Shown piece after piece: positions 6,414-40,737 of a DNA stretch of 40,737 bases. The position numbers were made by a program, and so were the translations under genes. This DNA is from a virus, in IMG/VR virus record IMGVR_UViG_3300032331_003152, positions 1-40,737 of that record. One strand, written 5' to 3'. Below the pieces are notes generated by a model. It saw only the letters and a program-made list of their open reading frames with translations, was not told where the DNA came from and did not search any database. Position 1 is the first letter of the stretch, and each line of letters begins with the position of its first letter.

Positions 6414-6767
6414 GGGGGCGTAATGGTATCGACTGGATATGGAAGATTGTATTAGCAAGTAGTGGTTAATCGACCGGCCACTTTAAAAGTCGATTAAATG
6501 CTTTAACTGGCACAAATCAGTTAGCCCTTGCTGCTTAATTAAATAGCAGCAACAATCTTAGAAAGCGATGAAGGTAGCGTTCAAAAGATTGTCGTAAAAT
6601 CCTTCGGCTGCTAGAATAGCCAACGGGTTCTAGCCTGAGATTAGTTGGTACGGAAAGATGAATGTTGTTTGTTCTTTAATCTTTCTTAAAACTTATGAAT
6701 GAAATAAACTTGTAGAAAATGTAATTAGAAATATCGCAGGACGGGGATTCGACTTCCCCCGCCTCCA
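6414..6767 (+). ncRNA. ssrA: Transfer-messenger RNA (tmRNA)
   Basis: About 354 nt. The acceptor GGGGGCG pairs with CGCCTCC (6760-6766), and the T arm GGGGA-TTCGACT-TCCCC is intact. Near the 5' end TATCGACTGG resembles the tmRNA D-loop region. An H-type pseudoknot (PK1) forms from AGTGG 6461-6465 with CCACT 6478-6482, and TTAATCGAC 6466-6474 with GTCGATTAA 6489-6497. Eleven nt later GGC (6509) is the likely resume codon, giving tag GTNQLALAA and TAA 6536. The stop sits in a hairpin TTGCTGCT/AGCAGCAA, as in bacterial tmRNA. An in-frame earlier GCT would give ALTGTNQLALAA. The tag would send stalled products to ClpXP-type proteases. No SmpB gene lies in the window. Confidence 0.95.
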
Positions 6768-6772
6768 CTTTT

Positions 6773-18550: not shown

Positions 18551-18938
18551 TCACGATGTTCATCTAAAATATTTGTGTAATAAATGTGGATCAATCCATT
18601 GGCTTTCTTTTAAGGAAGCATCAACAGATCAATTTAAAGTTGTTTGTGATTGTGATAATATCTTTACAGTTAGGCGTGTGTCTGGTTTTAAAATCAAGTA
18701 TTTTGATCAAGAAAATAAACCAAAAATACAGAAAGAAAAACTAGAATCATCACCAAAGACTAGTAAACAAATACCAGAATTTTTATTAGCACAAACTATA
18801 AAAGCACTAATACCATATGGATTTACTAGTGCTGAGGCTAGAGAAATTATAGTTAAAAGTTATAATGAACAGCCTAATGATAATCCATTACTTTTGGTTA
18901 AACAAACTTTGGCATCTTTAAGGAGTACAAATGTCTAA
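18528..18938 (+). CDS. Zinc-ribbon protein with RuvA domain III-like C-terminus
   Basis: 136 aa. Residues 15-50 form a zinc ribbon (CNKC at 17-20, CDC at 40-42). A Lys-rich linker (55-80) joins it to residues 82-133: PEFLLAQTIKALIPYGFTSA, then EAREIIVKS and LLLVKQTLASLRS. That matches the small three-helix domain III of RuvA (A-L-x-x-L-G-Y-x-x-x-E-A), the part that docks on RuvB. RuvA domains I and II, which hold the Holliday junction, are absent. The next gene is a full RuvB, overlapping by 8 nt. I infer a phage adaptor that recruits or regulates RuvB, with the zinc ribbon replacing the junction-binding core. Confidence 0.68.
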   Translation: MKHQKPIDHDVHLKYLCNKCGSIHWLSFKEASTDQFKVVCDCDNIFTVRRVSGFKIKYFDQENKPKIQKEKLESSPKTSKQIPEFLLAQTIKALIPYGFTSAEAREIIVKSYNEQPNDNPLLLVKQTLASLRSTNV

Positions 18939-19827
18939 TAATATTATGAGGCCCACTAAGTTCAGTGACATCATTGGTCAGCAAGAGGTTATAGACCGTC
19001 TGCAAATCATGGTGAAGGGCTGTTTAAGTTCTGGTGGTACGATGCCTCATGTTTTAATTGACGGGCCTCCTGGCCTTGGTAAAACGACAATAGCGAGTGC
19101 TATAGCCAGCGAACTACAGACCAATCTATATACGATCAATGCGGCCAATGTTCGTAGTGTTAAAAATTTACTACCATACCTCATGGGTATTGCACCACAG
19201 TCCGTACTTTTTATTGATGAAATACATAGACTTCCTAAACTAGTAGAAGAATTCCTTTATCCTGTAATGGAAGATTTTGTATTAAATATAACTCTAGAGT
19301 CTAAACCAGAGACTATTGATCTTCCAGTATTTACTCTTGTTGGGGCTACTACTAGTGGTGGCAGTTTAAGTCAGCCATTCTATGATCGTTTTGCAATTAA
19401 AGAGCATTTGTCTTTTTATACACCAGATGAGTTAGCCAAACTAGCAGGATTGAACGCACAAAAGCTCGGACTAATGATCTCTGATTCTAATCTATTAGAA
19501 ATTGGCAAAAGAAGTAAAGGAACACCAAGAATTCTAAATGCTAGACTACAATGGTACAAGAACTATATTGCTTATCATCAAAATAAAAATATAGATATTG
19601 ATGTTGTATTTAGTAGTCAGGGAATTGATAGTATGGGTTTAGATGTGTATGATAGAATGTATCTTGATATACTTCGTAAGAATAAGGGCAATCCTTTAGG
19701 ACTAAAAAGTATTTCATCATTAACTGGAATTGCTATAGAAACTATTGAAAACAGCATAGAGCCATATTTGATTAGACAAGGTTATGCTGTTAGAACACAA
19801 AAGGGAAGAATCATAGGTAATGTATGA
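18931..19827 (+). CDS. ruvB: RuvB-like Holliday junction branch-migration ATPase
   Basis: 298 aa, a little shorter than bacterial RuvB (about 335). RPTKFSDIIGQ opens as in RuvB. Walker A is GPPGLGKT (45-52) and Walker B is LFIDEIHRL (D96, E97). Sensor 1 is LVGATT, and the RuvB-type PFYDRF follows with R153. Sensor 2 is GTPRI. The C-terminal winged helix GLDVYDRMYL and EPYLIRQGYAVRTQKGRI is unmistakably RuvB. The bacterial TTRAG is TTSGG here. An AAGGAG site precedes ATG. No RuvA or RuvC gene is in the window. It would act as a hexameric DNA pump in recombination or fork processing. The N-terminal ~200 nt are GC-richer than the remainder. Confidence 0.93.
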   Translation: MSNNIMRPTKFSDIIGQQEVIDRLQIMVKGCLSSGGTMPHVLIDGPPGLGKTTIASAIASELQTNLYTINAANVRSVKNLLPYLMGIAPQSVLFIDEIHRLPKLVEEFLYPVMEDFVLNITLESKPETIDLPVFTLVGATTSGGSLSQPFYDRFAIKEHLSFYTPDELAKLAGLNAQKLGLMISDSNLLEIGKRSKGTPRILNARLQWYKNYIAYHQNKNIDIDVVFSSQGIDSMGLDVYDRMYLDILRKNKGNPLGLKSISSLTGIAIETIENSIEPYLIRQGYAVRTQKGRIIGNV

Positions 19828-20127: not shown

Positions 20128-21129
20128 ATGGCAGTCGGCTTAGACGTAGGAACAAGTTTTATTGTTTTATCCAAACAAACGCAAGAAGGAATAGAATATA
20201 AAGATTTCAGAGATGCGTTTTATATTATAAAGCCAACAACACCAGTAGCCACAAAGATGATTGAAAAAGGATTAGCAGGAAAAGTCTTTATTAAAGATAC
20301 TGATGGTTCTTTTATTCTATTAGGTAAAGACGCTATTGAAAAAGCAATAGAAAGAAATGATACTGCAAAAAGACCAATGTATAAAGGAGTAGTATCTTCT
20401 AAAGAAAAAGATGCAAAAAGAGTTTTAGCTTTTATTCTAAAAGAAGTAGTCGGAACAGCCTCAGAGTCCAGCGAAAAATTAGTATTCTGCATCCCTGCTC
20501 AACCAGTAGATCAAGAAGATGAAGATTTTGATGTAGGATATCATGAAGATGTTGTTAAAACAGTATTAGGTGAATGTGGTTATGATGCTCGTGCAATCAA
20601 TGAAGCAGAGGCTTTATGCTATGCTGAATTAGATACTGAAGAATATACTGGTATTGCAATTAGTTGTGGTGCTGGTATGACAAATGTTTGTGTCATGTTA
20701 AATGGTGAACCTACAGTAGTCTTTAGTACCACCAAGTCAGGCGACTGGGTTGATCGTATGAGCGCTGTGGCGACCGGAGAGCCGGATAGTGTTGTTCAGG
20801 CAGAGAAGGAGGCGGGTGGTTTTAAAATTGGCGAACCCAATGAAAATCCTATTCTTGGTGCAGTATCTGCATATTATGAAAGACTGATTGATTATACTAC
20901 TAAACAATTAAGTATGGCCTTAAATGGTCATAAATCTTTACCAAAATTTAAAAATCCTCTTACTATAGTTATTGCTGGTGGAACATCTCAGGCTAATGGT
21001 TATGTAGAAAAATTTATAGAAAAATTATCTGGTAACAACTTTCCATTAGCAATTAAAGAAGTGAGACACGCTAAAGATCCATTACATGCGGTATCTAAAG
21101 GTTGCTTAATTGCTTCTCAAATTTTATGA
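20128..21129 (+). CDS. Actin-fold ATPase (ParM/MreB-like)
   Basis: 333 aa, the normal size for an actin-like filament protein. Phosphate 1 is GLDVGTSFIVL (4-14). The connect-1 region reads INEAEALCYAEL. Phosphate 2 is AISCGAGMTNVCVM. The adenosine motif is VIAGGTSQANGY. This motif order defines the actin/Hsp70 superfamily, and the length without a substrate-binding domain favours an actin-like polymer over Hsp70. Possible roles are positioning phage DNA or virions, or plasmid-like partition. AAAGGA precedes ATG. A stretch at about 20736-20830 is strikingly GC-rich compared with the rest of the gene. Confidence 0.83.
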   Translation: MAVGLDVGTSFIVLSKQTQEGIEYKDFRDAFYIIKPTTPVATKMIEKGLAGKVFIKDTDGSFILLGKDAIEKAIERNDTAKRPMYKGVVSSKEKDAKRVLAFILKEVVGTASESSEKLVFCIPAQPVDQEDEDFDVGYHEDVVKTVLGECGYDARAINEAEALCYAELDTEEYTGIAISCGAGMTNVCVMLNGEPTVVFSTTKSGDWVDRMSAVATGEPDSVVQAEKEAGGFKIGEPNENPILGAVSAYYERLIDYTTKQLSMALNGHKSLPKFKNPLTIVIAGGTSQANGYVEKFIEKLSGNNFPLAIKEVRHAKDPLHAVSKGCLIASQIL

Positions 21130-21635
21130 CAGATCTACATAGTCTAGGATTAATTTTAATTCCAGATTTTTTAACGGAATCTGAGGAACAAGATATAGTC
21201 TCTAGAATACCAGAATCTAAAGGTAAAAAAAGATCTTCTGAAAGAAATAGTGTAAGACGTTTTGGATCTAATACTCCTTATAAAAATCAGATAGAGTCTA
21301 GTATTATACCAGACTATTTAGATAGGATTGGACAAAAATTAGTTGAAAGTCAATTATTATTAGTCAAACCAAATTCTATATCCATTAATGAATATTTACC
21401 TGGTAATGCTATTGCCCCACATATAGACAGTATTGAAAGTGGTCCAATTATTACTATCCTTAGTTTATTATCAGATGCAACTATGGTTTTAAATCATCCA
21501 AGACAACAAGAACAACAGATTTTAGTGCCTAAATTAAGCATATTACAACTTAAAGACGAAATAAGATACTCTTGGACTCATGCTATATTACCAGTTCAAC
21601 ATAAAAGATATTCTATAGTATTCAGAAATGGATAA
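21126..21635 (+). CDS. AlkB-like 2-oxoglutarate/Fe(II) dioxygenase
   Basis: 169 aa from ATG 21126, which overlaps the previous stop. The iron ligands are H99 and D101 (in PHIDS) and H152 (in WTHAI). The 2-oxoglutarate-binding R161 and R167 lie in KRYSIVFR. INEYLPGNAIAPHID is typical of AlkB proteins. It would oxidatively remove alkyl groups from nucleic acid, or hydroxylate a base or protein. With UvsE and the glycosylase it completes a damage-reversal set. Protein demethylation cannot be excluded. Confidence 0.85.
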   Translation: MTDLHSLGLILIPDFLTESEEQDIVSRIPESKGKKRSSERNSVRRFGSNTPYKNQIESSIIPDYLDRIGQKLVESQLLLVKPNSISINEYLPGNAIAPHIDSIESGPIITILSLLSDATMVLNHPRQQEQQILVPKLSILQLKDEIRYSWTHAILPVQHKRYSIVFRNG

Positions 21636-21650
21636 TATTGGTGTATTTAA

Positions 21651-21679: not shown

Positions 21680-21690
21680 AGGAGATTATA

Positions 21691-22443
21691 ATGAAATCTA
21701 TTTTAACTTATCTAATATTATTTTTTTGTTTGATTTCATATAGTATTGCAGGAACTATAGATCCATCAGTACCAGATCATAAATATATAGAATATGGTTC
21801 GCATTTTAAATATATAGTTAAATTATGTGGAATGTATGAGGACAAAACTCCATTTTGTGCGTCTGCTGTAGTAATTACAGAAAATGTTATATTAACAGCA
21901 GCGCATGTTGTAAAGGGATATAAGACATCAGTAGTAAAATTAGATACTGATACCATAGAGGTAAATAATTTTATTTGGCCAAAAGATTATGATGCTGATA
22001 AATATGGTACTAATGATATTGCTATTGGATTTTTACAAAAACCACTCAAATTAGATTTTTATCCAGAATTGTATGATAAAGAAGATGAACTAGATAAACT
22101 ATGCTGTATATCAGGATATGGAGTCACCGGTAATTTTATTACTGGAGCTAAAATATTTGATGATAAAAAAAGAGCAGGATCTAATATTGTAGAAGCAATT
22201 GATAGACAATTATTGGTTTGTAGAGCATCAAAACACACAGATAAAAGAAGAACATCACTAGAATTTATAATAGCAAGTGGAGATAGTGGTGGTGGACTAT
22301 TTATAGATAATAAATTAGCAGGAATAAATTCTTGCGTCAGTGGTAATGGAAAAGAATCATTAAAGTCAACATATGTAACAGAATCGTGTCATACAAGGAT
22401 TAGCATACACAGAGAATGGATACTAAAACACACAAAGAAGTAA
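21691..22443 (+). CDS. Secreted trypsin-like serine protease (S1 fold)
   Basis: 250 aa. The N-terminal signal peptide is basic then hydrophobic (KSILTYLILFFCLISYSIAG), with cleavage probably near residue 20. The catalytic triad is in family context: TAAHVV (H72), GTNDIAI (D109) and SGDSGGGL (S199). Several Cys could form disulfides, consistent with export. It would be exported across the host inner membrane and cleave envelope or extracellular protein. Trypsin-type proteases are rare in phages. AGGAG precedes ATG. Confidence 0.87.
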   Translation: MKSILTYLILFFCLISYSIAGTIDPSVPDHKYIEYGSHFKYIVKLCGMYEDKTPFCASAVVITENVILTAAHVVKGYKTSVVKLDTDTIEVNNFIWPKDYDADKYGTNDIAIGFLQKPLKLDFYPELYDKEDELDKLCCISGYGVTGNFITGAKIFDDKKRAGSNIVEAIDRQLLVCRASKHTDKRRTSLEFIIASGDSGGGLFIDNKLAGINSCVSGNGKESLKSTYVTESCHTRISIHREWILKHTKK

Positions 22444-23263: not shown

Positions 23264-23791
23264 ATGAAAACACTATCTAAAAATCGTTTACCAATTTTGT
23301 ACGATAATTTATTTCCATCAGTAGATCAAATAGTGCGTGGAAAAAATGCTGGAACAAGCGTTATAGTACCGCATGTCTGTAATAATATCAATGTGTTTGG
23401 TGCAGGATTTACTGCTGGTATAGAAAAATACTATCCCATAGTCAAAGAAAATTTCCATCTTCTTGGTAATAAAGCTCGTATGGGATATGTTCAATACGTT
23501 GAAGTAATGAGAGATCCAACACATAATCATAAACTCATTTTTGCCAATATGATAGCACAAAATGGAGTTATATCTAAAAATAATCATAGACCATTGAACT
23601 ATGGATCATTAGTTATTTGCATGATGTCTGTAGCATCTTATATCAAAAATCATTTTGATAAAGAAAATAGTGTGCAAATTCATGCTCCTAAGTTTGGTAG
23701 TGGATTGGCTGGTGGCAACTGGTCTTTTATAGAGGAATTAATAAATGATACATGGAATAATATACCGGTATTCATTTATTCTCATAAATAA
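23264..23791 (+). CDS. Macro-domain protein (ADP-ribose-binding)
   Basis: 175 aa, one macro domain. SVIVPHVCNNINVFGAGFTA is the strand and loop that cradle ADP-ribose. IFANMIAQNGV is the next core strand. IHAPKFGSGLAGGNW is the phosphate-binding loop. It most resembles the class that acts on ADP-ribose 1''-phosphate or removes ADP-ribose from targets. In a phage it could reverse host ADP-ribosylation defences or recycle products of RNA repair. It has its own promoter and is TAATG-coupled to the glycan cassette. The exact substrate is not visible. Confidence 0.82.
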   Translation: MKTLSKNRLPILYDNLFPSVDQIVRGKNAGTSVIVPHVCNNINVFGAGFTAGIEKYYPIVKENFHLLGNKARMGYVQYVEVMRDPTHNHKLIFANMIAQNGVISKNNHRPLNYGSLVICMMSVASYIKNHFDKENSVQIHAPKFGSGLAGGNWSFIEELINDTWNNIPVFIYSHK

Positions 23792-34393: not shown

Positions 34394-35053
34394 ATGTTAC
34401 TACAACTAAATGGCATAGGCAATCAGAAAATTCAATATAAAGACCACTCAACACTAAGTTTTGATAGCTTAGATAATTATATGCTTTTGGCAAAAAAGTC
34501 CATATCAAAATTTTCTAACCAATTTTATAACGGCCTATCTGCAAAAATGCTCAAAGATGAAGATGCTATATCTTCTATTGCTAATGCTATTATGATGGCT
34601 GACTGGAGATGGGATGAAAATTATCAAAACACTAAAGGTACTAAAAAGACTAAGTATTCATATCGTAATCAATGTGCCTTATGGGCCATACAAACCTATG
34701 TTTCTAAGAACCACAAGAAAAATAAAAAATTCAAAAATAAAATCTATTCTTTAGATCATATTGTAGAAGACCATGATGATTCTACAGTACATAGTTTTAC
34801 ACAAGATACAAAAAGTTTATCTCCAGAAGAAATATTAAGCAACAAGGAGAATAAGGAGCAACTGTCTTCACTCATAGAATCGTTGCTCAGTTTAGAATGT
34901 TTAAGTCCTAGACAAAGAGACTATATTAGACTATATTATTTTGAATCCTATACATTTGAAAAAATTGGCCAAAAATATGGTATTACTAGAGAGGCAGTAA
35001 GACAAGGCTTAAATAAGGCTATTACCTTAATAAAGGAATCTATTAATGTTTAA
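34394..35053 (+). CDS. Sigma-70 family factor (phage late sigma candidate)
   Basis: 219 aa, smaller than primary sigma factors. Region 2 is about 28-105 (AISSIANAIMMADWRWDENY and YRNQCALWAIQTYVS), for core binding and -10 recognition. Region 4 is about 168-216, with LSPRQRDYIRLYYFESYTFE leading into a helix-turn-helix (KIGQKYGITREAVRQGLNKA) for the -35 element. Regions 1 and 3 are reduced. It would redirect host RNA polymerase to late genes, as T4 gp55 does. AAAGGA precedes ATG. Which promoter sequence it reads is unknown. Confidence 0.85.
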   Translation: MLLQLNGIGNQKIQYKDHSTLSFDSLDNYMLLAKKSISKFSNQFYNGLSAKMLKDEDAISSIANAIMMADWRWDENYQNTKGTKKTKYSYRNQCALWAIQTYVSKNHKKNKKFKNKIYSLDHIVEDHDDSTVHSFTQDTKSLSPEEILSNKENKEQLSSLIESLLSLECLSPRQRDYIRLYYFESYTFEKIGQKYGITREAVRQGLNKAITLIKESINV

Positions 35054-37639: not shown

Positions 37640-38209
37640 ATGGCCACAGCACAAGTCAACGGTTCCGCTTTAACAAATAATGGCTATGGTTCTTTTTTAG
37701 AAGCCAATAATGCACACGGCACAATGAAGGCCAACGGAACAGCCACATCAAATATTGTAGAAAGTGTTACAACACCAAGTCCAGTAGTAGATGCTTTTGC
37801 ATCGAAGGTTGTTGAAGATACAGTAACAGTAAAAGATTATGCTGGTAAGGCTGTTTCTGGTGGTGTTTTTGCCCATAATCATGTCAAACCAATTTCAAGT
37901 TTAATTACTGATGAATTAGCTGGACTAAGTAATAATAGTATCAAAACACCAGGTAATGATCAGGATACTATTCGTAGTATAAATAAACTAGAAACACTTC
38001 GTACTCGCAAACTTACCACAGCCATTAGAGAGAACAAATACAATCGTTATACAAATGAGTTCGATGCTGGCTATCCACAAGTCTCAGTAGACACATTGGC
38101 AACAGACGAAGCAGCCGCTCCAACCTCCAGTGTTCCTGGCGAATTGACCTATATGAGTGGTGCTAAGACTCCTTACAATGATAACTACAAGGCTAAGACC
38201 AGTTATTGA
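37640..38209 (+). CDS. Ala/Thr/Ser-rich probable virion protein, 189 aa
   Basis: Starts MATAQVNGSALTNNGYGSFL. Low-complexity Ala/Thr/Ser/Val sequence without membrane or metal motifs; a later charged helix (SINKLETLRTRKLTTAIREN) and a Pro/Thr/Ser tail. TGGAG precedes ATG. Codons are GC-richer than in neighbours, as expected of an abundant late product. Head decoration, whisker or major structural protein is possible; not identified. Confidence 0.65.
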   Translation: MATAQVNGSALTNNGYGSFLEANNAHGTMKANGTATSNIVESVTTPSPVVDAFASKVVEDTVTVKDYAGKAVSGGVFAHNHVKPISSLITDELAGLSNNSIKTPGNDQDTIRSINKLETLRTRKLTTAIRENKYNRYTNEFDAGYPQVSVDTLATDEAAAPTSSVPGELTYMSGAKTPYNDNYKAKTSY

Positions 38210-38616: not shown

Positions 38617-39021
38617 ATGGCAGCTACTGAATATAATTTTTCTATAGAACAAGGATCATCTTTTAGATTATTATTAACATATAAAGATACTAATGGAGAT
38701 GTTATAGATCTAACTGGATATTGCGCTAGACTAACAATGAAAGTTGGAGGGCAAGAATTTAAAACTTTTAGTACTTTAAATAACGATTATACTGAATATA
38801 AATTTACTATTGATGGCCCACAAGGTAGTATTAATTTATTAATTCCTGCTAGTGCTACTAATAATTATAACTTTAATAGCGCTAAATATGATCTTGAATT
38901 ACAAAGTCCACAGGATTTATATGTTGGTGGGGGTAAATATACTATAAGAGTATTATATGGAACTATTTCTATTATTAAACGATTTAGTCAATCAACCACT
39001 CTGCTAGACTGCACAATATGA
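38617..39021 (+). CDS. Tail/baseplate-type beta-sandwich protein, 134 aa
   Basis: FSIEQGSSFRLLLTYKDTNG, then VIDLTGYCARLTMKVG, SINLLIPAS, AKYDLELQSP and RVLYGTISIIKRF. This is the pattern of small beta-sandwich modules found at the N-terminus of phage baseplate and receptor-binding proteins. Overlaps the fibre gene by ATGA. It likely assembles with that fibre. Confidence 0.75.
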   Translation: MAATEYNFSIEQGSSFRLLLTYKDTNGDVIDLTGYCARLTMKVGGQEFKTFSTLNNDYTEYKFTIDGPQGSINLLIPASATNNYNFNSAKYDLELQSPQDLYVGGGKYTIRVLYGTISIIKRFSQSTTLLDCTI

Positions 39022-40737
39022 GCTGTTTTGATGTTAAAATTATAGATCCAGATATAAACACCATAGAAATACAAACTTGTATTGGTGAACAGCCATCTTC
39101 TATAGATATAGTCACATACGACAATACTGCTTTATTAGAAGTTTCTCATTGTGTAGCATTATTACCATCAGAAATTAGTGATTTAATAAAAGTTCAAGAT
39201 ATATTGGCTGGTAGTGGTATTAGTGTGATTGATAGTAGCGGTATCTATACAATATCATTATCTAATCCTACCATCTATTCTAGTGGTATAGTTGACTTTT
39301 TAGAAGCTGTACAAGATGTGATTGGTAATAGTGGGTTAGTTGCTGGAAATTATATTAACGTAAACTATAATGATTCTACTGGATATACTACTGTTTCAGC
39401 CACAGGATTGCAACCTAGTGGAAACTATAGCATTGTGGGCCACTCCCATAATACAAGCGACATAACTAATTTTAACAGTAGTGTAAGCGGTTTGTTACCA
39501 AGTGTAACTGGCACTGGCTATGTCTCTTCGTCTTTTTCTAATAATCTTTATACTATTTCTGTAACAGGACTACAACCTAGTGGAAATTATAGCGTTGATG
39601 GTCATACTCATACAAGCTCTAATATTACAGATTTTAACTCTAGTGTTAGCGGACTTCTTCCTGTTAAGAATATTAGTGCTGGCAGCGGCATAGGAATATC
39701 TTCAGTTTCTGGTGATTTTACAGTTAGTGTTACTGGGACTTTTGGTCTTACTGACGAAGAAGTTGATGATAGAGTAAGTAATTTATTAGTGGGTGGTAAT
39801 TATGTAAATCTTAATTATAATGATTTAGGAAACAGTCTAATAATTTCTGTTACTGGCGTTCAGCCAAGTGGAAACTATAGTTTAATTGGACACTCTCACA
39901 ATACTAGTGATATAACAGACTTTAATAGCGAAGTAAGCGGTTTAATTCCAGTTAAAAATGTGCTAGGTAGCGGATATGTTAACGTCTCCTCATCTTCTGG
40001 TAACTATACTGTAAGCGTTAGCGGTTTACAACCAAGCGGTAATTATGCTAATGCTGTTCATACTCACACTAGTAACAATATAACAGATTTTAATAGTAGT
40101 GTTAGTGGATTATTACCAACCATAGCGAATAGTGGTAATAATCGATTACTTACTAGTACAGGATCATCCGTAGGAATAAATGCTGAAAGTGATTTAACTT
40201 TTGATAATGGGGTTTTATCGATTAGTGGTATATTCCCTAGTCTAAAAATTGTAGACCCTATAGGCATCCCTTCATTAGAACTCAATGGTCCTAATAGTGT
40301 AATTTTTCTTAACGCAAATCTATCGCACACTATAGACAGTACTGGGGGTGAAGTTGTAGTTACTGCTGATTCTGGTATTTATTTATCTGCAAATAATAGT
40401 AATACTTTATCTATCAGTAATAGTGGATTATATTATAATAATATATTAGTAAGTATTAGCGGCCATACCCATACAAGTTCTGATATAACAGATTTCAATA
40501 GTGCTGTTAGTGGATTGATTCCTCCGTCTAACTTTACTTCACTAACTGGATTAAGCGGAATAGTTGTCACTAATAGTGGCACAAATTATTTTGTAACATT
40601 AAGTGATCCTACTATTCAACTAGCTGATATTACAGATCTATCTTCTAATGCTAGAACTTTTTTATTAACACCGTCTAGTAGTAATCTTAATACTTTAATT
40701 AGTGATGAAACTGGATCTGGAAATTTAGTATTTAATA
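39018..40737 (+). CDS. Long tail-fibre-like repeat protein (3' end beyond window)
   Basis: Open from ATG 39018 to the window end, at least 573 aa with no stop. The first ~110 residues form a distinct attachment domain (SCFDVKIIDPDINTIEIQTC onward). From about residue 120 it is Ser/Asn/Gly/Thr-rich beta sequence with five 21-residue units of the pattern G-H-x-H-x-x-x-x-I-T-x-F-N-S-x-V-S-G-L-x-P, each introduced by Q-P-S-G-N-Y in most cases. The H-x-H pairs resemble metal-binding motifs of phage fibre trimers. It would extend from the baseplate and may carry the receptor tip beyond the window. Confidence 0.87.
   Translation, partial: MSCFDVKIIDPDINTIEIQTCIGEQPSSIDIVTYDNTALLEVSHCVALLPSEISDLIKVQDILAGSGISVIDSSGIYTISLSNPTIYSSGIVDFLEAVQDVIGNSGLVAGNYINVNYNDSTGYTTVSATGLQPSGNYSIVGHSHNTSDITNFNSSVSGLLPSVTGTGYVSSSFSNNLYTISVTGLQPSGNYSVDGHTHTSSNITDFNSSVSGLLPVKNISAGSGIGISSVSGDFTVSVTGTFGLTDEEVDDRVSNLLVGGNYVNLNYNDLGNSLIISVTGVQPSGNYSLIGHSHNTSDITDFNSEVSGLIPVKNVLGSGYVNVSSSSGNYTVSVSGLQPSGNYANAVHTHTSNNITDFNSSVSGLLPTIANSGNNRLLTSTGSSVGINAESDLTFDNGVLSISGIFPSLKIVDPIGIPSLELNGPNSVIFLNANLSHTIDSTGGEVVVTADSGIYLSANNSNTLSISNSGLYYNNILVSISGHTHTSSDITDFNSAVSGLIPPSNFTSLTGLSGIVVTNSGTNYFVTLSDPTIQLADITDLSSNARTFLLTPSSSNLNTLISDETGSGNLVFN
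39438..40523 (+). repeat. Five H-x-H fibre repeats of 63 bp
   Basis: Units at 39438-39500, 39600-39662, 39888-39950, 40056-40118 and 40461-40523, all in frame. Each encodes 21 residues ending V-S-G-L-[L/I]-P. Spacing between starts is 162, 288, 168 and 405 nt. The fourth has Val in place of the first Gly. Confidence 0.88.

Follow-up and report, generated by a model that had tools for sequence, protein, structure and literature searches.

Most known phage proteases act either within the virus particle or in the cytoplasm. Structurally, the closest described relatives of the phage protease reported here are the S1 endopeptidases (PF00089), for instance mast cell protease II, the chymases, the granzymes and fire ant chymotrypsin. 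It shares with them the fold, the catalytic triad, the GDSGG block and a full-length superposition, at a sequence identity of about 20% to the solved enzymes. In these enzymes, the residues at positions 189 and 216 shape the S1 pocket, and a bulky residue at 216 renders it shallow and elastase-like. Trypsin-like proteases encoded on plasmids, such as those of Pseudoalteromonas (WP_100916034.1) and Xanthomonas (WP_012438442.1), are homologous over the full length and also carry a leader, but they are bacterial genes, are even as the nearest plasmid relatives just 25–30% identical, and do not keep the GTIDP block of the phage protein in the Pseudoalteromonas alignment. A further protease, the subtilase that partners the phage enzyme in sister phages, does not belong to the S1 family; it is nearest to the intracellular subtilisins and at most 41% identical to the subtilases of the Bacillus phages SP-15, Goe3 and Goe8. 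The Mtz metzincin of Listeria resembles the phage protease in function only, being a metalloprotease of another fold that resides in a phage remnant; it is reported to be a phage-derived exported protease that increases phage-mediated lysis and acts via cleavage of a partner lipoprotein (PMC8235301). In the published literature, largely excluding subscription papers, we found no paper on a family of exported S1 proteases in phages, and the matched passages of a study on another aquatic jumbo lineage do not mention such an enzyme (PMC12619734).

The DNA analysed here, referred to as the window, spans the 40,737 bases of an IMG/VR virus record, and its features are collected in Table 1. Its protease gene starts with ATG behind an AGGAG, comprises 250 codons and ends with TAA, and its divergence from the counterpart in a closely related contig (L002), taken as a measure of selection, amounts to dN 0.028 and dS 0.252. 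The gene is real and intact, and no artefact. In one other contig (L006:495-1260), a frameshift splits the protease gene; other genes are broken in the same contig, and the frameshift is probably an assembly or sequencing error.

Table 1. Features of the protease locus and its surroundings, in positions of the window
Feature	Position	Strand	Basis
rIIA-like protein, phage hallmark	14053..16731	+	
rIIB-like protein, phage hallmark	16764..17627	+	
RuvB-like AAA ATPase, commonest neighbour	18931..19827	+	RuvB_N 155 bits; 36/50 loci
Volactin-type actin homologue	20128..21129	+	206 bits; 28/50 protease loci
AlkB-like 2OG-Fe(II) oxygenase, upstream neighbour	21102..21635	+	
GGTGTAT, candidate phage promoter element ahead of the protease gene	21640..21646	+	motif enrichment upstream
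Ribosome-binding site AGGAG	21680..21684	+	sequence
Exported serine protease of the S1 family (chymotrypsin fold), 250 aa	21691..22443	+	ORF, Pfam, profile alignment, model
Predicted Sec signal peptide (export leader), residues 1-20, with a predicted cut before Gly21	21691..21750	+	rule-based
GTIDP, predicted mature N-terminus	21751..21765	+	Gly-Thr kept in 50/50 relatives
Cys46, putative disulfide with Cys56	21826..21828	+	pairwise presence among relatives
Cys56, putative disulfide with Cys46	21856..21858	+	pairwise presence among relatives
Catalytic H72 (His57 equivalent)	21904..21906	+	alignment to solved structures, 50/50 relatives
Catalytic D109 (Asp102 equivalent)	22015..22017	+	alignment to solved structures, 50/50 relatives
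Catalytic S199 (Ser195 equivalent) in GDSGGG	22285..22287	+	alignment to solved structures, 50/50 relatives

The protein matches the Pfam family PF00089 (Trypsin) with 59.3 bits (E 6.5e-16), above the family cut-off of 20.6. With a profile of 17 relatives, 236 different PDB sequences are matched at E ≤0.001, the best being fire ant chymotrypsin (1.8e-10). The AlphaFold2 model (mean pLDDT 85.3, pTM 0.84) superposes on rat mast cell protease II (3rp2) over 198 residues with a Z-score of 24.0 and an rmsd of 2.1, and thus displays the predicted two-barrel chymotrypsin fold. In the profile alignment to solved structures, H72, D109 and S199 fall into the TAAH, DIA and GDSGG blocks. This triad is invariant in all 50 dereplicated relatives, as is D198, the equivalent of Asp194. 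The set of 50 was obtained from 88 protease loci by leaving out two proteins shorter than 225 residues and those at least 90% identical to one already kept; two bacterial-looking loci (L034 and L035, 28% identity) were excluded from it, and L034 served as the outgroup of the tree.

The residues lining the specificity pocket set the phage enzymes apart from trypsin. Numbered by alignment, the equivalent of position 189 is Leu, Ile, Phe, Met, Ser or Cys in all 50 relatives, never Asp, and the equivalent of position 216 is Val, Ile or Leu, not Gly. A trypsin in the narrow sense, cutting after Arg or Lys, is therefore rejected, so that the term 'trypsin-like' in the original prediction holds for the fold but not for the specificity. 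Since position 189 is never Asp and position 216 is always Val, Ile or Leu, the sequences suggest an elastase-like pocket instead.

At its N-terminus, the window protease has the makings of an export leader: a lysine in second position, a hydrophobic stretch, and a small residue at –1. Under a simple home-made rule, which asks for a basic residue and a hydrophobic core, 47 of the 50 proteases qualify, compared with 48 of 778 other genes in the same loci and none of 23 subtilases, and even the three proteases that fail it have hydrophobic leaders; by this rule, the clear signal peptide noted originally is supported. The leader runs directly into Gly-Thr in all 50 relatives. In the structural alignment, residue 21 or 22 of the model meets residue 16, the mature start of S1 enzymes (in the rows that use this numbering), which is why cleavage of the leader seems to expose the final N-terminus in one step, with no intervening propeptide. 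Unlike the S1 enzymes, the phage protease thus has no apparent propeptide, and in place of the IVGG-type start of chymotrypsin-type (S1A) zymogens its leader is followed by GTIDP. The Cys42–Cys58 bridge of those enzymes is likewise missing, with a valine after the catalytic histidine of the window protein where Cys58 is usual. Instead, Cys46 and Cys56 co-occur, 42 of the 50 relatives having both and eight having neither, and likely form a hairpin disulfide.

The gene neighbourhood is that of a phage. Besides the genes in Table 1, the window has genes for thymidylate synthase, DNA ligase and a head-maturation protease, and a rIIB-like gene is found in 25 of the 50 dereplicated protease loci, which extend no further than about 5 kb to either side. 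Near-identical proteases occur in L002 (95%), L003 (95%) and L005 (98% over the 132 residues present), all with the same order of a rIIB-like gene, three small genes, and the RuvB-like, a small, the Volactin, the oxygenase and the protease gene. In L004, which has neither the Volactin nor the oxygenase gene, the protease directly follows the RuvB-like gene. Together, Pfam, alignment, model, leader rule and synteny bear out what the original prediction had proposed from the window, an exported protease with a trypsin fold and an intact triad in a phage genome.

Several other elements of these records deserve mention. Among phage records, the Volactin-type homologue is matched by two uncultured ones only (485 and 595 kb). 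At 6414-6770 (+), the window carries a phage-borne tmRNA (Rfam, 134.6 bits) with the tag GTNQLALAA; in a search of 21 records, tmRNAs over the cut-off were also found in G002 and G027. The gene at 23264-23791 (+) has no Pfam match, although its product looks like a macro domain to the eye. An ORF at 39000-40737 (+), open at the record end, contains repeats such as GHTHTSSDITDFN and looks tail-fibre-like by eye. The T4-type capsid protein PF07068 was matched in none of 21 records, with the controls silent too.

As to its spread, a direct search with the protease yielded four loci, and profile searches yielded five and then 29, two of them bacterial-looking. A final profile scan of viral contigs confirmed 381 stretches from 424 candidates, on contigs of up to 458 kb. 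The protease thus represents a large family in uncultured phages, and the earlier assumption that such enzymes are rare does not stand. A tblastn search with the protease against 50,697 phage records returned nothing, even at E 10. From these scans, the best 80 of the 381 confirmed stretches and, for the subtilase, the best 80 of 167 entered the analysis, so that both sets favour closer relatives. The proposed phylogeny placed the 50 phage proteins together, apart from three bacterial-type sequences, but the latter sit on long branches. In a Proteus mirabilis record, a relative of the S1 proteases for which no gene is listed lies near dfrA1 (L037:3001-3720).

In sister phages, the protease adjoins a subtilase of about 300 residues (PF00082, 171–179 bits in the four tested). 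Seen from the subtilase side, the protease is adjacent in 39 of 54 dereplicated loci, drawn from the best 80 stretches mentioned above, lies elsewhere in the fetched stretch in five and is absent in ten. By hand count, it is upstream in 37 of the 39 adjacent pairs, the two genes lying no more than 7 nt apart; in 28 of these 37 they overlap. From the protease side, the subtilase is found in 14 of 50 loci and not in the remaining 36, and none was found in the window record. The subtilase has its best PDB matches in intracellular serine proteases (7y6m and 7xr8), lacks an export leader by the same rule, and starts with a conserved LLPY/LLPH segment, which resembles somewhat the inhibitory N-terminal extension of intracellular subtilisins. 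The arrangement of the two genes suggests translational coupling and a possible attack on host proteins from both sides of the membrane. L031 and L032 each contain a further S1 gene, divergent and leaderless (L031:7994-8662). L031 also encodes an exported-looking protein with an HExxH motif (HETVH; L031:4102-4959), and its cluster comprises up to four protease-like genes, including the subtilase.

The protease gene also appears to have its own promoter element. The motif [AG]GTGTA[TA] lies 20–75 nt upstream of the protease in 11 of 15 loci of the discovery set, compared with 12 of 272 other genes. In 37 loci outside the motif's discovery it precedes 23 proteases, compared with 17 of 512 other genes (in both counts, genes too near the locus start were skipped), a difference whose Fisher p of 1.4e-20 is not to be taken literally because the loci are related. 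In the window, a GGTGTAT-type motif is also found ahead of the gene at 37640, the second after the head-maturation protease, and in L052 the motif precedes a similarly placed gene; this placement is suggestive of a phage factor that drives transcription in the middle or late phase. A scan for consensus sigma-70 sites gave 113 sites, compared with 105.8 in shuffles. The window encodes a phage sigma-factor-like protein at 34394-35053 (+), a candidate reader of the GGTGTAT element.

Some observations bear on the hosts. The DUF1501 family is represented in 11 of 49 related records, and the six proteins inspected, from large phage contigs (L198-L203), have MNRRHFL-type, twin-arginine-like starts. 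The planctomycete Singulisphaera provides the best plasmid relative, with 34% identity and 223 bits, the four others reaching at most 125 bits. These two observations hint at planctomycete-type hosts for part of the related phage group, without tying the window itself to a host. Several of the IMG sample numbers presumably denote lakes. DUF1501 clusters have been tied to PVC bacteria (PMC4452313), and lake phages have been inferred to infect Planctomycetes in a study whose main text nowhere contains the word protease (PMC9040852). The planctomycete-linked domain PSD1 (PF07587) was matched in none of 43 records, with the controls silent too. Furthermore, a search for Amidase_2, Phage_lysozyme, SLT and M23 in 28 records of more than 100 kb, carriers of the protease or the subtilase picked by size, gave no match, whereas the controls matched. 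The gene content of the large carriers is a hint that these phages lyse their hosts by means other than these four wall-hydrolase families.

As the leading reading, which we put forward tentatively, the S1 protease is exported to cut envelope proteins; this would probably happen late in infection, and the subtilase would be its cytoplasmic partner. Besides the fold, the triad, the leader, the paired cysteines and the pocket residues, this reading draws on the upstream motif, the adjoining subtilase, the lack of matches to the four wall-hydrolase families and the precedent of Mtz. A phage promoter element of its own would drive the gene, probably during the middle or late phase, and the product would be exported via Sec. 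A signal-peptidase cut after residue 20 would directly create the mature N-terminus, with neither a propeptide nor an activation step, and the protease would hence be constitutively active. Outside the cytoplasm, the hairpin disulfide would stabilise the enzyme, which, judging from its pocket, would cleave periplasmic or cell-surface proteins behind small aliphatic residues. The protein part of the host envelope might thereby be weakened or cleared before release, and in many sister phages the coupled, leaderless subtilisin would meanwhile work in the cytoplasm. The ten subtilase loci without a protease within reach speak against this proposal, as do the window record and the 36 of 50 protease loci in which no subtilase is found.

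Less probable, and in our view unlikely, is a role in superinfection exclusion or receptor shaving, i.e. the removal of surface receptors used by the phage or its competitors. An exported, active-looking protease would suit this task, as would its place near the rII genes, whose namesakes in T4 act in exclusion, but a broad, elastase-like pocket and the coupling to a leaderless subtilase are not suggestive of a single surface target. The data weakly favour envelope proteolysis over receptor removal. Doubtful, too, is nutrient scavenging, in which the exported protease and the cytoplasmic subtilase would break down host proteins for amino acids: one transcription unit would indeed provide proteases for two compartments, yet the periplasmic product would need uptake and the window record has no subtilase. 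We are equally sceptical of counter-defence, the destruction of a periplasmic or surface defence protein or of an inhibitor of entry or lysis; it agrees with the strict conservation of a large family whose gene has a promoter-like element, but with such a target the family should be spread more patchily, whereas 36 of 50 loci share a conserved gene neighbourhood. Similarly improbable, if bolder, is the idea that an exported, zymogen-free, elastase-like S1 protease and a co-translated subtilisin of the intracellular type form a widespread two-compartment proteolytic lysis cassette, which would break down host proteins on either side of the membrane and assist or replace wall hydrolases in large phages whose hosts have protein-rich envelopes, e.g. 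planctomycetes. Finally, bacterial contamination, a caveat raised in the original prediction, or a chimeric contig is practically out of the question: S1 proteases are common in bacteria (family matches in 11 of 14 control genomes), but the order of the rIIB-like, RuvB-like and Volactin genes is the same across independent metagenomes, which excludes it, the plasmid relatives are distant, and 84,980 prokaryote genomes, scanned twice by sequence patterns, gave no relative, although distant cellular ones may remain since each scan used two short patterns.

That four common wall-hydrolase families had no match in 28 large carriers prompts one to ask how such phages lyse their hosts, and the coupling of the protease to a leaderless subtilase offers a testable system. 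The S1 family described here, large, strictly conserved and predicted to be exported, was not found in a collection of 50,697 phage records; if it acts as proposed, envelope proteolysis would be added to the routes by which phages exit or remodel their hosts.
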